Positions 24,376 through 29,677 of a stretch of 51,350 nt of DNA are shown one piece after another. Origin of the DNA: Bacillota bacterium (GTDB taxonomy: Bacteria > Bacillota_I > Bacilli_A > RF39 > UBA660); the NCBI GenBank assembly GCA_015059445.1, contig SVAK01000007.1:1-51350 (forward strand). Direction: 5' to 3'. Under the pieces are notes generated by a model, which was not told the DNA's origin, made no database searches, and worked only from the letters and a program-made list of their open reading frames with translations. Positions within the stretch are counted from its first letter, which is position 1. Every line of letters begins with the position of its first letter. Position numbers and translations under genes: made by a program.

Positions 24376-24400
24376 ATAAAAAGATGTGTAAATCACATCT
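24376..24400 (-). terminator. Intrinsic terminator retained with the surface-protein relic
   Basis: Perfect 7-bp stem AGATGTG (24382-24388) / CACATCT (24394-24400), 5-nt loop, then TTTTTATAT on the minus strand. The stem contains part of the relic's stop codon and now ends the YgjP transcript. Confidence 0.75.
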
Positions 24401-24477
24401 ATAATCCTATTTCGTATTTATTTCCTTCTTCGCCAGTTCCATTATCTCCTGTGCAACTTTTAACGAAAATTAATACC
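24399..24477 (-). pseudogene. Relic of a surface-protein 3' end
   Basis: In a frame different from the neighbouring gene the minus strand reads VLIFVKSCTGDNGTGEEGNK then YEIGL and TAG at 24399-24401. This matches the shared C-terminus of the surface proteins (VYLKSN..NDGTGEEGNKFEIGL), and about 30 nt are almost identical at DNA level. No other part of such a gene remains; the upstream side overlaps the 3' end of the metallopeptidase gene. Confidence 0.85.
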
Positions 24478-25102
24478 TCAGTTTTTTCCTTTTTTCTTTA
24501 TAGTCTGGGATGGCCATACTTACTAAATTCCAGAAATTTTTTCCGTGGTTAGGTTCAAAAAAATGAGTCATCTCATGAATAATTACATAATCGATCAAAG
24601 ATATATCTTTCTTTAGTAATTCACTATTTAAAGTAATTGTTTTATCTCTGGTATTACAAACTCCCCATCTAGTGCGCATTTTTCTAATCTTCAAAGTAAA
24701 TTCAGGCAATTCATTAAAGCATTTTTTACAAACATCAATTTCTTCATTAAAAATTCGTAAACACTCATCATCATAAAATTTCTTCAAAGCATCTTCGTCA
24801 TGACATGTAATTTTATTATCTTCAAATTCTATTTCTGATACTCTATTATCAAAAGTTACTTCATAGCTTTTCCCTAAATACCAGAACAAACTATCTCGTT
24901 CTTTTCTTTGCAAGGCATTTTCATACATTTTTAAAATAGCACTAGAATTTTTGGTAATTAAGTTTCTAATCTCTTCATCAGTAATAAATCTCGGAGCCGT
25001 GATAATTAAATTGCAATTTTCATCAATGCGAAAATAAAGATTTTTATTATCTTTTTTTATCACTTCATAATTTACAATATAATCATTTAATTTAAATTTC
25101 AT
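24470..25102 (-). CDS. YgjP/DUF45-type zinc metallopeptidase
   Basis: 210 residues from ATG 25102 (ATG 25105 and GTG 25111 are alternatives in the same frame). The C-terminal domain is the YgjP family: LKIRKMRTRWGVCNTRDKTI, LNSELLKKDISLIDYVIIHE, with HEMTH (H176, E177, H180) and FFEPNHGKNFW (H186 as third ligand). The Wss1/SprT-like fold suggests cleavage of proteins, but the substrate is not known. The frame overlaps the relic of a surface-protein gene at its 3' end, so this end may have been reshaped by that event. It lies downstream of a SirA-like gene. Confidence 0.85.
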   Translation of the reverse strand: MKFKLNDYIVNYEVIKKDNKNLYFRIDENCNLIITAPRFITDEEIRNLITKNSSAILKMYENALQRKERDSLFWYLGKSYEVTFDNRVSEIEFEDNKITCHDEDALKKFYDDECLRIFNEEIDVCKKCFNELPEFTLKIRKMRTRWGVCNTRDKTITLNSELLKKDISLIDYVIIHEMTHFFEPNHGKNFWNLVSMAIPDYKEKRKKLRY

Positions 25103-25135
25103 CATTACCACTACTTAATTCTATCATAAAAATAT

Positions 25136-25552
25136 TTATCTCACAAATTCATTTAACCAAAAATAATCTTTATTTTTAAAATCACATACAAATAAATTAT
25201 CAGTCATTAAATAATTCACTAAAAGGGTTGGATTTATTACATCACTTTTTAAAATAATATGACTTCTATAAACTCTCAAAGTGCTAGTTTCCGGTTTGTA
25301 TTTATTACAAATAGTATGAATATCTCCATCTTTATTATAATATCTATGATTTTTAAATAAATTATAAATTCTTTTATTTATATATTCTTTATCAAATAAA
25401 TCGAATAAATCATTATATATTTTAAAAGAAACACCTAATGAGTCATTATCCAAATAGTATAAATTCTCAATAGTCCTATAAAGATTATATGGCGTTTCTT
25501 TAGTTAATATAGTTAATTCCCTTTTTATTTTAAATATATAAAATGTACGCAT
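25136..25552 (-). CDS. SirA-like replication-inhibitor homologue
   Basis: 138 residues, soluble. The ends resemble SirA of Bacillus, which binds DnaA domain I and blocks chromosome replication at the onset of sporulation: FYIFKIKREL at the start, and VCDFKNKDYFWLNEFV at the end, compare AFDFNSKRYGWLN. The middle is divergent (SLGVSFKIYNDLFDLFDKEY). I judge homology likely but not certain. The gene has a TATAAT (25570-25575) with no clear -35, and is followed by the YgjP gene. Whether the organism sporulates cannot be decided from this window. Confidence 0.55.
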   Translation of the reverse strand: MRTFYIFKIKRELTILTKETPYNLYRTIENLYYLDNDSLGVSFKIYNDLFDLFDKEYINKRIYNLFKNHRYYNKDGDIHTICNKYKPETSTLRVYRSHIILKSDVINPTLLVNYLMTDNLFVCDFKNKDYFWLNEFVR

Positions 25553-25620: not shown

Positions 25621-27585
25621 TTATTTTTTCATTAATTCTATAATCTTTGTTTTAATTGAATCAGCATCTAAATTATAATAATTTAATAATTCTTCTTTTG
25701 TACCTGATGTACTATATTTATTTATTCCAAAAACATAGTCCTCATTTGTTGCATATTTATGCCACATGGCACCACTGCCAAATTCAATAACAAAAGTTTT
25801 TAACTCTTTTGGTAGCAAACTATATTTATATCTTTCATTTTGCAATTCAAATAATTCTTGGCTTGGCATTGTGATTACTCTAAAATCAATTCCATAAGGA
25901 AGTAATTCATCAGCTATTTTTAATGCAAGGGATACTTCACTACCAGTTGCAATAATAATACCATTGGCTTCACCTTTTTCTCTTTTAGCTCGGTAAGCTC
26001 CGGCTACAACATATTTGGGGTTAGTTCCCATTAACTTTTTTATTTTTTCATTACCAATAATTATTGCACTACTTTTTTTGTAGTTCGCTAAAATATTATA
26101 TATTCCTATGATTTCATTTATATCGGCTGGCCTAAAAGTAATTAAATTAGGAATTATTCTTAAACTATTAATTTCATCAACACCACTAATTCCCATATCT
26201 TCATACGAATTTAAAAAAGTATCGTGACTAAATATGTAATTAACAGGCAAATTATATTCAGAACTAAATCTAATAAAAGGTCGCAAAAAATTACTATCTA
26301 TAAGTGGAGCACTAACAAACATTTTAAATCCCAAGCTAGCTAGACCATTGACAATTCCTCCCATTGCTAATGTCCTATTACCAAAATAAATATTTCTACC
26401 AGTAGGATTTTCTTTACTCATTACATTGGATTCGCTAATATTACACTTAGTATGTATGAAATTCCCGCTGCTGCCACTTAAAATAAATGGACTTTTGCTA
26501 GCTAATATATTAAATATTTTACTATTACCTACTAATAATTCTTCTTCATAGCTATCATTTATTTTTATATTTTCTGAATTAAAATTAACTTTGACATTTT
26601 TTGTTTCTAAAAATTCAATTACTTCTTTTATTTTTAAATCATTTAAAAATGTATTTTTTATTTCTAGCCATTTAATTAATTCTTTGTTTAGTCGTTTATT
26701 AACATGCTTATTTATCTTTTCATAACAATCTTCTGTTACACTAAATGGATTTTCTATTTTATATTTTTCTCTTAAACTATTCATTTCCTCATTTGTTAGA
26801 GGCTTATTATGAAATTCCCCCAGAAAATCTCTTGTTAGTTCTTTACAACGGCCATTTTTTATTAAGATAATTGTAGGTTTTTCATTATCCTTAGCTTCAT
26901 CAATGGCATCTTCTAAAGCCCCAATATTATTTCCTTTTAATTCAATAATATTGAATTGCAATGCTTTTAGGCGATTAACTATGTCTTCTGACTCGGTTTC
27001 TTTGAATTTACTATCTTTAGCTGCTTCATTTTTAACAACAATTAAAATAAATTTATTTAATTTTTCTTTTCCGGCAAAAGCCAAAGATTCATAACTAAGC
27101 CCACTCATCAAATCGTTATAAGAACATACACAATATGTTTTAAAATCAATCAGATTGCATTTTGGTTTTTCATCCTTCACTAAAGATTCTAAATATCTTT
27201 CCCCAAGAGCAACTCCTACACTGGAAGATATAACATCTTCACTTGTATGACTGCCAATCTCAATGCCAGCACAAAGAGGACTAGCATATCCTAAAGTATT
27301 AGAGTTGACTTTTTTAAATTCTTTTAAATTATCTAATGAAACATCATAGCCAAACATATGTAACGTAGAATACATAACTGGTAGAAATTCATTAGTTACT
27401 ATTAATCTATCTCTATTTATCCAATTAGGGTTTTTAATATCAAATTTTAAATGTTCCATAAATAAAGTATAAAAAACTAATGAACTACTTAAAGATAATT
27501 TAACATTCCCACTGCCAGCTTCCTTAATCATATCTAAGCTTAACATTTTAATATTATTTATTATGTTATTTTCTAACTTACTCAT
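25621..27585 (-). CDS. Transketolase homologue without active-site residues
   Basis: 654 residues, collinear with transketolase over its whole length (LSLDMIKEAGSG, NPNWINRDRLIV, the pyrimidine-binding domain, and the C-terminal IIIATGSEVSLALKIADELL). Almost every cofactor or catalytic motif is changed: SGHPG is SGNVK (25-29), AGHGS is NEFLP, TTGPLGQG is replaced around 111-120, the ThDP motif GDGDLMEG is SYNDLMSG (155-162), the metal Asn region is KNEA (185-188), and the catalytic Glu of GVREFAM is Thr405 (GNRTLAM). The frame is intact, so it is not a recent pseudogene. A non-enzymatic or regulatory role is inferred. It follows a UgtP-like gene by 11 nt. Confidence 0.85.
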   Translation of the reverse strand: MSKLENNIINNIKMLSLDMIKEAGSGNVKLSLSSSLVFYTLFMEHLKFDIKNPNWINRDRLIVTNEFLPVMYSTLHMFGYDVSLDNLKEFKKVNSNTLGYASPLCAGIEIGSHTSEDVISSSVGVALGERYLESLVKDEKPKCNLIDFKTYCVCSYNDLMSGLSYESLAFAGKEKLNKFILIVVKNEAAKDSKFKETESEDIVNRLKALQFNIIELKGNNIGALEDAIDEAKDNEKPTIILIKNGRCKELTRDFLGEFHNKPLTNEEMNSLREKYKIENPFSVTEDCYEKINKHVNKRLNKELIKWLEIKNTFLNDLKIKEVIEFLETKNVKVNFNSENIKINDSYEEELLVGNSKIFNILASKSPFILSGSSGNFIHTKCNISESNVMSKENPTGRNIYFGNRTLAMGGIVNGLASLGFKMFVSAPLIDSNFLRPFIRFSSEYNLPVNYIFSHDTFLNSYEDMGISGVDEINSLRIIPNLITFRPADINEIIGIYNILANYKKSSAIIIGNEKIKKLMGTNPKYVVAGAYRAKREKGEANGIIIATGSEVSLALKIADELLPYGIDFRVITMPSQELFELQNERYKYSLLPKELKTFVIEFGSGAMWHKYATNEDYVFGINKYSTSGTKEELLNYYNLDADSIKTKIIELMKK

Positions 27586-27596
27586 AAATCTCCTTA

Positions 27597-28727
27597 TTAC
27601 AACTTGTTCACTAAATCATTAATTTTTTCAACTGATTTATTATCATCCAACTTAAGCATTCTTTCGTGCATTTTCTTGATTATATTTGGATTATTATCTA
27701 TTTTTTTCAACCATCTTTTAAATCCCCAAGTTCCCTTAACTCTAATACCAAATTTCTTTTTGACCATAAATTTTGCATTATATTTTTCTTGACCACCTAA
27801 GCCAGGCAATGATAATAAAGGCACTTTCATTTCTAAACATTCTGTTACAGTAGCCCCACCTGGTTTACTTATAACTAAATCAGATATTTTCATTATATTT
27901 AATATATCATATGAAAAACCAAGCACTTTAATGTTCTTTATGTTTTTTGACTTTACATATTTTTCACATTTATTTTTTAGTTTTTCATTTTTACCACTTA
28001 TAAAGATAACATCAGCATCTAAATTTATCTTAGCAAGCGTTTTAAAATAATCATAATAATACATACTACCGGCTGTACCGCCACCAAAAAATAAATACAC
28101 TTTTTTATTTCCTTTAAATTTATATCTTTTTAAAATTTCTTCTTCTGAATCTAATTGCTGAATTTGTGTAATATTTAAAGGCAGACCGAAAGCATGAACT
28201 TTTTTGGCTTCTACACCTCTTCGAACTAATTCCTGTTTAACCATTTCATTGCCTACTATAAATCCATCTTCTTTTTTATGATTTTTAATCCACCACTCAT
28301 GTATTCTATAATCTGTAATAATAGAAAATAACTTAGTATTAATAAGCTTTATTTCATTATAATAATTTATTATGCTACTACAGTAAAAGTGACTTGATAT
28401 TGTAATATCGGGGTTAAAGTTTGCTATTAATTCTCTTAATCTTTGATTATCATAACTCTTTTTAGAAAATAAATTATGTCCTAAAGTTGGCACTTTATGA
28501 TCTGTAATCTCATACGCTGAATCAAATATAAATTCTGGACGATATTTAGAGACAAAATCCATAATTTTAACGCTGACTTTGCCTAACCAATTTCCGTAGT
28601 CAGTCATATCTAAAACCATAACTTCAATTTTTTTGTTATTGTCCTTAAGATAATTTGCCACATATTCAGCAATTGCTTTATGTCCCGATCCATATCTTGC
28701 ATACATTATTAAAACTTTTTTCTTCAT
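27597..28727 (-). CDS. UgtP/MGDG-synthase-type glycosyltransferase
   Basis: 376 residues, GT28-like. The N-terminal domain has VLIMYARYGSGHKAIAEY (the GSGH loop that binds acceptor lipid in MGDG synthases) and the C-terminal domain has LFFGGGTAGSMYYY, LGFSYDILNIMKISDLVISK, PGGATVTECLEMKVPLL and GQEKYNA, the nucleotide-sugar site. Relatives transfer glucose or galactose from UDP-sugar to diacylglycerol at the inner membrane face, giving membrane glycolipids and the anchor of lipoteichoic acid; the LTA-synthase-like gene at 6076 is a plausible partner. It has its own promoter and is followed by the transketolase homologue. Confidence 0.88.
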   Translation of the reverse strand: MKKKVLIMYARYGSGHKAIAEYVANYLKDNNKKIEVMVLDMTDYGNWLGKVSVKIMDFVSKYRPEFIFDSAYEITDHKVPTLGHNLFSKKSYDNQRLRELIANFNPDITISSHFYCSSIINYYNEIKLINTKLFSIITDYRIHEWWIKNHKKEDGFIVGNEMVKQELVRRGVEAKKVHAFGLPLNITQIQQLDSEEEILKRYKFKGNKKVYLFFGGGTAGSMYYYDYFKTLAKINLDADVIFISGKNEKLKNKCEKYVKSKNIKNIKVLGFSYDILNIMKISDLVISKPGGATVTECLEMKVPLLSLPGLGGQEKYNAKFMVKKKFGIRVKGTWGFKRWLKKIDNNPNIIKKMHERMLKLDDNKSVEKINDLVNKL

Positions 28728-28778: not shown

Positions 28779-28797
28779 TGAATTACTTATTCATTGC
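28765..28797 (-). terminator. Intrinsic terminator after the 49-residue membrane-protein gene
   Basis: Perfect 8-bp stem CAATGAAT (28776-28783) / ATTCATTG (28789-28796), 5-nt loop, then TTTTATTTT on the minus strand. The stem overlaps the stop codon of the small gene. Confidence 0.8.
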
Positions 28798-28932
28798 TAT
28801 ATATGTATTATTAATATTTTCGTTATTTTTATTATTTAAGTGTGAAAATCTAAAATTCAGGAGCAATACTCCAATCACGATGACCGAATAAAATAAAATT
28901 AATCCTCCCATGTCCATTAACTTTTTTTTCAT
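28783..28932 (-). CDS. 49-residue membrane protein divergent from lexA, SosA/YneA analogue candidate
   Basis: Starts at ATG 28932 with AAGGAG 9 nt upstream and ends with TAA at 28783-28785. It has a basic N-terminus (MKKKLMDMG), one membrane helix (GLILFYSVIVIGVLLLNF, about 10-27) and a polar asparagine-rich tail. It has its own -10 and its own terminator, and a LexA-like dyad lies just upstream of the -10. In Bacillus yneA and Staphylococcus sosA, short single-span membrane proteins divergent from lexA block cell division during the SOS response. This gene has the same place and build but no recognisable sequence match; it lacks a LysM domain and is shorter. The function is therefore inferred from context. 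Confidence 0.75.
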   Translation of the reverse strand: MKKKLMDMGGLILFYSVIVIGVLLLNFRFSHLNNKNNENINNTYIAMNK

Positions 28933-28953: not shown

Positions 28954-28980
28954 ATTATATCTTAGCAAAAACATTTGTTT
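28954..28980 (-). promoter_or_regulatory. Promoter and LexA-like operator of the small divergent gene
   Basis: -10 TATAAT at 28954-28959 with no good -35. The dyad AAAC-N4-GTTT (28969-28980) sits where the polymerase would contact the spacer and -35, a natural repressor position. Confidence 0.55.
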
Positions 28981-28997: not shown

Positions 28998-29036
28998 AAA
29001 CAATTGTTTGACATTTTACATATCATGTTGTAAAAT
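28998..29036 (+). promoter_or_regulatory. lexA promoter with overlapping LexA-like operator
   Basis: -35 TTGACA (29008-29013), 17-nt spacer, -10 TAAAAT (29031-29036). The perfect palindrome AAACAATTGTTT (28998-29009) overlaps the -35, as expected for autoregulation. The core AAAC-N4-GTTT differs from the Bacillus GAAC-N4-GTTC box in the outer bases. A second dyad ATTTTACA-N8-TGTAAAAT (29013-29036) covers the spacer and -10. Confidence 0.75.
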
Positions 29037-29053: not shown

Positions 29054-29677
29054 ATGAAAGGAACTGAAATTACTAAAAGACAAAAAGATGTACTTGATTA
29101 CATAAAAAAATACATTGCTGACCATGGTTATCCACCTGCCATTAGAGAAATATGTAAAGGCGTAAACTTATCAAGTCCTGCAACTGTATTCGTCCATATG
29201 AAAAACTTAGAGCAATTAGGATATATTAAAACAACAAGTAATAAATTTAGAACAATTGAAATTTTATGTGAAAATGAATATTTAGAAACTAAAGAAGATA
29301 TTGTTAAAGTACCGCTGCTTGGAAAAATTACTGCAGGATCACCAATTACTGCTATAGAACAACCTAATGAATTTTTTGATATTCCCGCTTCATTAATCCC
29401 AGCAACAGAAACTGTATTTACTTTACATGTAAGTGGCGAAAGCATGATTAACGCCGGAATATATGATGGCGATTATGTTATAGTCCAAAAACAAAGCAAT
29501 GCTAAAAATGGTGACATAGTTGTAGCAATGACCATGGAAAATGAAGCAACAATCAAAACTTTTTACAAAGAAAAAGATCATATTAGATTACAACCAGAAA
29601 ATGATACAATGGAACCTATAATTCTAGATAATTGTGTAATTTTAGGAAAAGCTATTGGATTGTATAGAAAATTTTAA
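29054..29677 (+). CDS. lexA: SOS repressor LexA
   Basis: 207 residues, the only large plus-strand gene. The N-terminal winged helix has ITKRQKDVLDYIKKYIADHG, PPAIREICKGVNLSSPATVF then HMKNLEQLGYI. The self-cleavage domain has the Ala94-Gly95 site in ITAGSP, the catalytic serine S130 in VSGESM and the lysine K168 in ATIKTF. RecA filaments trigger cleavage and derepress SOS genes. AGGAGG precedes the ATG by 6 nt. Two matching dyads in the intergenic region suggest it controls itself and the divergent small membrane-protein gene. Confidence 0.97.
   Translation: MKGTEITKRQKDVLDYIKKYIADHGYPPAIREICKGVNLSSPATVFVHMKNLEQLGYIKTTSNKFRTIEILCENEYLETKEDIVKVPLLGKITAGSPITAIEQPNEFFDIPASLIPATETVFTLHVSGESMINAGIYDGDYVIVQKQSNAKNGDIVVAMTMENEATIKTFYKEKDHIRLQPENDTMEPIILDNCVILGKAIGLYRKF

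Follow-up and report, generated by a model that had tools for sequence, protein, structure and literature searches.

The AdoMetDC prozyme and PDX1.2 are pseudoenzymes that accompany an active paralogue, and in both an enzyme fold has stayed under selection after the loss of catalytic residues. Also comparable are human TKTL1 and TKTL2, transketolase-like proteins of doubted activity for which modelling supports cofactor binding (PMC6334435) and which accompany an active transketolase. A literature search of limited scope turned up no paper describing a bacterial transketolase pseudoenzyme. Here we report such a protein from a genus of gut Bacilli. Like the prozyme and PDX1.2, it is an enzyme fold maintained after its catalytic residues were lost; unlike these and the human proteins, it comes from the sole transketolase gene found in its genome, its active site is gone, and phosphoketolase probably took over its substrate.

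The lexA-tkt region of Bacillus subtilis, whose gene order is lexA-yneA-yneB-ynzC-tkt-sirA, without ugtP, is the nearest counterpart of the locus itself. In both, lexA is divergent from a gene for a small membrane protein, and tkt and a sirA-like gene follow downstream. The present locus differs in that the small open reading frame (49 aa) has no family match, a GT28-type glycosyltransferase gene is inserted, and tkt appears, judging by its residues, to be catalytically dead. The features of the window, by which we mean the whole stretch of 51,350 nucleotides that was analysed, are collected in Table 1.

Table 1. Features of the pseudo-tkt locus and the adjoining lexA region (window coordinates)
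Feature	Position	Strand	Remarks
Terminator-like hairpin	24382..24400	(-)	after YgjP-like gene; consensus match only
YgjP-like metallopeptidase-domain protein	24470..25111	(-)	last gene of the presumed operon
SirA-like protein	25136..25552	(-)	138 aa; adjoins tkt across the family; 21.8 bits
tkt-derived pseudoenzyme	25621..27585	(-)	654 aa; PP ~1-310, Pyr ~311-520, C ~521-654
GT28/MGDG-synthase-type glycosyltransferase	27597..28727	(-)	first large gene of the operon; 11-bp gap to pseudo-tkt
Unannotated 49-aa ORF (MKKKLMDMGGLILFYSVIVIGVLLLNFRFSHLNN...)	28783..28932	(-)	hydrophobic segment; ribosome-binding site ahead; between lexA and operon
LexA-type box AAACATTTGTTT	28969..28980	.	overlaps promoter-like site of the minus-strand operon
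LexA-type box AAACAATTGTTT	28998..29009	.	beside lexA promoter-like site
lexA	29054..29677	(+)	divergent from pseudo-tkt operon; TIGR00498 226.9 bits, cut-off 110.95

The pseudo-tkt frame is intact from an ATG start, with a good ribosome-binding site (AAGGAG) ahead of it. Its product matches Pfam Transketolase_N (E=4e-50) and Transketolase_C_1 (E=6e-26), and residues 4-651 align collinearly with B. anthracis transketolase. The AlphaFold model is confident (pLDDT 91, pTM 0.92) and superposes 644 residues on PDB 3m49, the B. anthracis enzyme, at 1.9 Å (Z 43.3). Reading frame, domain matches, alignment and superposition agree on a full-length transketolase fold with all three domains, as the sequence-only reading of this DNA had held when it described an intact frame collinear with transketolase over 654 residues. 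The protein thus shares length, domain order and fold with bacterial transketolase (TIGR00232; PDB 3m49/3hyl) and, within its family, the locus beside lexA and the SirA-like gene. It departs from bacterial transketolase in most of its cofactor, substrate and catalytic residues, and in a TIGR00232 score of 373 bits that lies below the equivalog cut-off of 682. A second, normal tkt was looked for by profile search and none was found elsewhere in the source genome (1.02 Mb, 95% complete), where this is the only Transketolase_N gene detected; the case is thereby stronger than if the protein had been a spare paralogue.

To describe the active site we used 22 ThDP, Mg, substrate and catalytic positions, assigned from general knowledge of yeast transketolase and given in yeast numbering. 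The canonical residue is replaced at 18 of them. Among the ThDP/Mg ligands and the catalytic glutamate, the window copy carries D157Y, E162S, HTS in place of the GPL of GPLGQG, and E418T (Thr405), and N187 alone is kept. Among the substrate and phosphate residues, H30, H69, H103, R359, D477, H481 and R528 are altered and only H263, S386 and H469 retained, S386 being the sole one of this set that is invariant across the genus. I191, D387, F442, F445 and Y448 are replaced as well. The earlier statement that all motifs had been replaced, the catalytic position Thr405 included, therefore describes most of the site accurately and is slightly overstated with respect to the four residues that persist. 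From these replacements we infer that the protein is catalytically inactive.

The same condition prevails throughout the genus. An open-frame gene is present in 35 of its 37 genomes (34 of 36 besides the source genome), and each of these copies has between 0 and 5 of the 22 canonical sites left. Relatives with standard motifs would have told against the sequence-only reading; all 34 of the other genus members that carry the gene are without them, and the agreement of 35 genomes rules out a sequencing or assembly error. As for the two remaining genomes (G021 and G036), a loss of tkt is unsupported: their lexA match is missing too, so that the tkt region is probably absent from the assemblies rather than the gene lost. 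Named genus records are metagenome-assembled genomes (MAGs) of uncultured Bacilli, mostly from rabbit samples ("Lapin") and also from goat, sheep and cattle; Candidatus Coprovivens, a relative among the matches, has been assigned to the GTDB order RF39 (PMC8035907), so RF39 is probably also the order of the genus.

Most of the genus proteins are 608-655 aa long, and in four species (L033-L036) they measure 552-560 aa. A 554-aa form still yields a confident model (pLDDT 89, pTM 0.90) with the same order of secondary-structure elements, and its ThDP domain falls below the Pfam cut-off.

Selection on the gene was estimated as dN/dS (omega) with a codon model fitted to clusters by maximum likelihood. 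Omega for pseudo-tkt is 0.021-0.024 in four genus clusters, compared with 0.016-0.031 in canonical transketolase clusters of the same family and 0.009-0.030 for neighbouring operon genes in those genus clusters, and further clusters agree (0.008-0.030); these values are approximate, synonymous sites being near saturation, yet nowhere near one. Under neutrality, a frame with such a composition seldom stays open past 0.05 redraws per site. The pseudo-tkt is selected as strictly as the working enzyme, and with its catalytic residues lost, its fold kept and purifying selection acting on it, the protein is a pseudoenzyme. A ratio near one, which would have spoken against selection, did not occur, and an omega of about 0.02 together with the genus-wide open frames bears out the earlier proposal that the fold is kept for some purpose other than transketolase activity.

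What is under selection is no longer the active site. At the 18 catalytic columns that are invariant in canonical transketolase, the genus consensus retains the residue at 1, and the replacements vary, with a mean majority frequency of 0.46; the corresponding figures for 85 other canonical-invariant columns are 53 retained and a majority frequency of 0.74. No conserved ligand site was seen in the old pocket when column conservation was followed across the genus. The relative rates of the domains have also shifted. In canonical transketolase PP is slowest and C fastest (PP 0.90, Pyr 1.04, C 1.17), whereas in the genus the order is inverted and PP is fastest (PP 1.14, Pyr 0.84, C 0.93), with a bootstrap interval for the C-minus-PP shift of 0.15 to 0.31 that excludes zero. 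Because the pocket varies and PP is now the fastest domain, we conclude that constraint has left the active site and moved onto the Pyr and C domains. The shortened subclade (L033-L036) shows an eroding ThDP domain, and there C changes half as fast as PP (0.56 versus 1.14). The shift was not seen in the one other degenerate group tested, and the genus may for that reason be a special case in this respect.

Phosphoketolase is the likely driver of the loss, a factor absent from the sequence-only reading. The source genome encodes a complete phosphoketolase with all three XFP domains. By family searches, the means by which pathway genes were assessed, phosphoketolase is present in 22 of 24 genomes with a degenerate tkt, in 33 of 39 without tkt and in 49 of 123 with a canonical tkt (Fisher p = 2e-6 and 9e-7, shared ancestry not corrected for). 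In these counts, degenerate status came from the N-domain score alone for five g77 genomes, G175 and G229, weak partial matches were scored absent, and seven genomes were left out as fragmentary. The two degenerate genomes lacking a phosphoketolase match (G014 and G233) are possibly incomplete MAGs. Rpe was found in 56 of 56 genomes and RpiB in 55 of 56. Transaldolase (PF00923) was found in none of the 56 family genomes under a search that did match control genomes, and throughout the family the non-oxidative pentose phosphate pathway is in that regard atypical. On the simplest reading, phosphoketolase, Rpe and RpiB substituted for transketolase chemistry, and phosphoketolase probably made transketolase catalysis dispensable; we infer that it arrived first and caused the release. 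Our literature search, limited in scope, found no paper linking RF39-type Bacilli with phosphoketolase metabolism.

Catalytic loss has occurred repeatedly in the family. The gene tree contains at least 4 changes between canonical and degenerate forms, all forced by well-supported branches, and the loss in L055 is recent, this degenerate protein sharing 78-80% identity with near-canonical enzymes. Degenerate but open tkt genes were also seen in L057, L059, L060, L061, L081, L083, L125, L153 and L164, and several of this set, L055 included, are independent of the genus. In three further relatives (L176, L183 and L184) tkt has been deleted in place, and lexA now adjoins the SirA-like gene or GT28. 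Some relatives bearing phosphoketolase have deleted tkt, and any non-catalytic role is therefore not universal; since deletion is possible in relatives, retention in the genus requires a cause.

The surroundings of the gene are old. The order lexA-(GT28)-tkt-SirA-like is common to degenerate and canonical loci alike, and pseudo-tkt descends vertically from the usual tkt of the family and has kept its ancestral place. After deletion of tkt in L176, L183 and L184, the SirA-like gene still stands beside lexA or GT28. The SirA-like protein scores below the PF10747 gathering score of 26 (21.8 bits, E=0.00029) and has no meaningful match among solved structures; its identity rests on its position beside tkt. 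SirA itself is a replication inhibitor linked to sporulation. No terminator-like site was found between it and pseudo-tkt. The sequence-only reading had placed pseudo-tkt in one transcript with a UgtP-like glycosyltransferase and likened this to a link known in Bacillus. A GT28-type gene does lie 11 bp upstream in the same orientation. By score it is far from UgtP, however: it has GT28/MGDG_synth domains only, and against the diglucosyl-diacylglycerol synthase PRK13609 it reaches 153.5 bits where the cut-off is 500. The comparison with Bacillus is correspondingly weak, for GT28 also adjoins canonical tkt genes, and it is lexA and the SirA-like gene that are conserved as neighbours. Where degenerate tkt loci beyond the genus were inspected, none had a GT28 match next to the gene.

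Between lexA and the operon lie sites that resemble LexA boxes. Of 80 loci, 73 have at least one RAACN4GTTY box no further than 110 bp from lexA and 39 have two, where 0.012 per locus would be expected. The strict B. subtilis-type box GAACN4GTTC has no exact match in the window and one-mismatch matches to it fall at chance frequency, the relaxed RAACN4GTTY being the conserved form; a stricter Bacillus form, CGAACN4GTTCG, was found in some relatives. The 49-aa ORF has no Pfam or NCBIfam match and is conserved at most genus loci and many family loci, including those of tkt-less relatives. Proteins of the YneA/SosA class are SOS-induced division inhibitors. With its position divergent from lexA and behind the LexA boxes, and a hydrophobic stretch read from the sequence, the ORF is placed as members of that class are, and we consider it a candidate SOS-induced small membrane protein, YneA/SosA-like by position. 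Given the conserved boxes and this small ORF between lexA and the operon, LexA may plausibly control pseudo-tkt and its operon.

This arrangement could mean that the protein is a dedicated member of an SOS operon, acting under LexA with the small membrane protein and the GT28-type, SirA-like and YgjP-like proteins in a checkpoint-type role, perhaps one that transketolase had earlier held as a moonlighting function. The divergent lexA, boxes far above expectation, conservation of the small membrane ORF and the SirA-like neighbour, a gene order kept across the family and a junction between pseudo-tkt and the SirA-like gene in which no terminator-like site was found are all consistent with it. 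Yet the same neighbourhood houses canonical, catalytically normal tkt genes, and loci that have deleted tkt still carry the boxes and the small ORF, so adjacency to lexA may be ancestral only; we regard this explanation as unlikely. Its extension to the family, in which an old non-metabolic function of transketolase tied to a LexA-controlled operon alone kept the protein once phosphoketolase had relieved it of catalysis, repeatedly and independently, and made it a dedicated DNA-damage or cell-cycle factor, we consider doubtful to a similar degree. Rather improbable is an enzyme or sugar-phosphate sensor with a rebuilt pocket. The fold is intact and the window copy has S386 and some histidines left, but the phosphate-binding R359 and R528 are gone, the residues of the old pocket differ among genus members, and the shortened subclade has an eroding ThDP domain. 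The sequence-only reading had suggested sugar-phosphate sensing, and for the old pocket this finds no footing, since the binding positions are lost and their replacements vary (0.46 versus 0.74).

The strong co-occurrence with phosphoketolase might also be taken to mean that the pseudoenzyme is a partner or regulator of this homologous enzyme, as a hetero-oligomer or allosteric subunit comparable to other pairs of inactive and active enzymes; both fall within the ThDP-enzyme superfamily and have related folds, and Pfam Transket_pyr touches phosphoketolase. Functional replacement accounts equally well for the co-occurrence, however, many phosphoketolase-bearing genomes are without any transketolase homologue, and the two genes lie on different contigs, and we judge such a partnership distinctly improbable. 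A functionless relic in slow decay is hardly credible. Some family members have lost tkt, and pseudo-transketolase is often the least conserved operon protein in the genus (65% in L003, versus 74-86% for the GT28, SirA-like and YgjP-like proteins), but a neutral frame closes quickly, and here omega is about 0.02 and 35 frames are open across a deep genus, in assemblies obtained independently from rabbit, goat and cattle samples. The selection tests and the open frames rule out decay for the genus; for recent single cases such as L055 the verdict is less certain.

We therefore favour, with a probability of roughly 0.55, a pseudoenzyme freed by phosphoketolase and kept as an interaction or scaffold protein that acts non-catalytically through its Pyr and C domains. 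The ancestral tkt would have turned into a pseudoenzyme in its original place. Xylulose 5-phosphate would be used through phosphoketolase, with Rpe and RpiB connecting it to ribose 5-phosphate; transketolase chemistry would no longer be needed and the ThDP/substrate pocket would lose its constraint. The genus would then have retained the gene for a folded protein, probably still dimeric, that may serve as a scaffold or interaction partner, its working surface lying in the Pyr and C-terminal domains.

Pseudoenzymes usually derive from spare copies, whereas here the sole copy found of a central-metabolism enzyme has lost its catalytic residues genus-wide. Related lineages display each stage of this process, from a working enzyme through recent loss, old loss and a shortened form to clean deletion. 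Annotation and metabolic models will wrongly assign the transketolase step to these gut bacteria, because the Pfam score exceeds its cut-off. The family offers a natural experiment in which the catalytic and non-catalytic roles of a textbook enzyme are separable.
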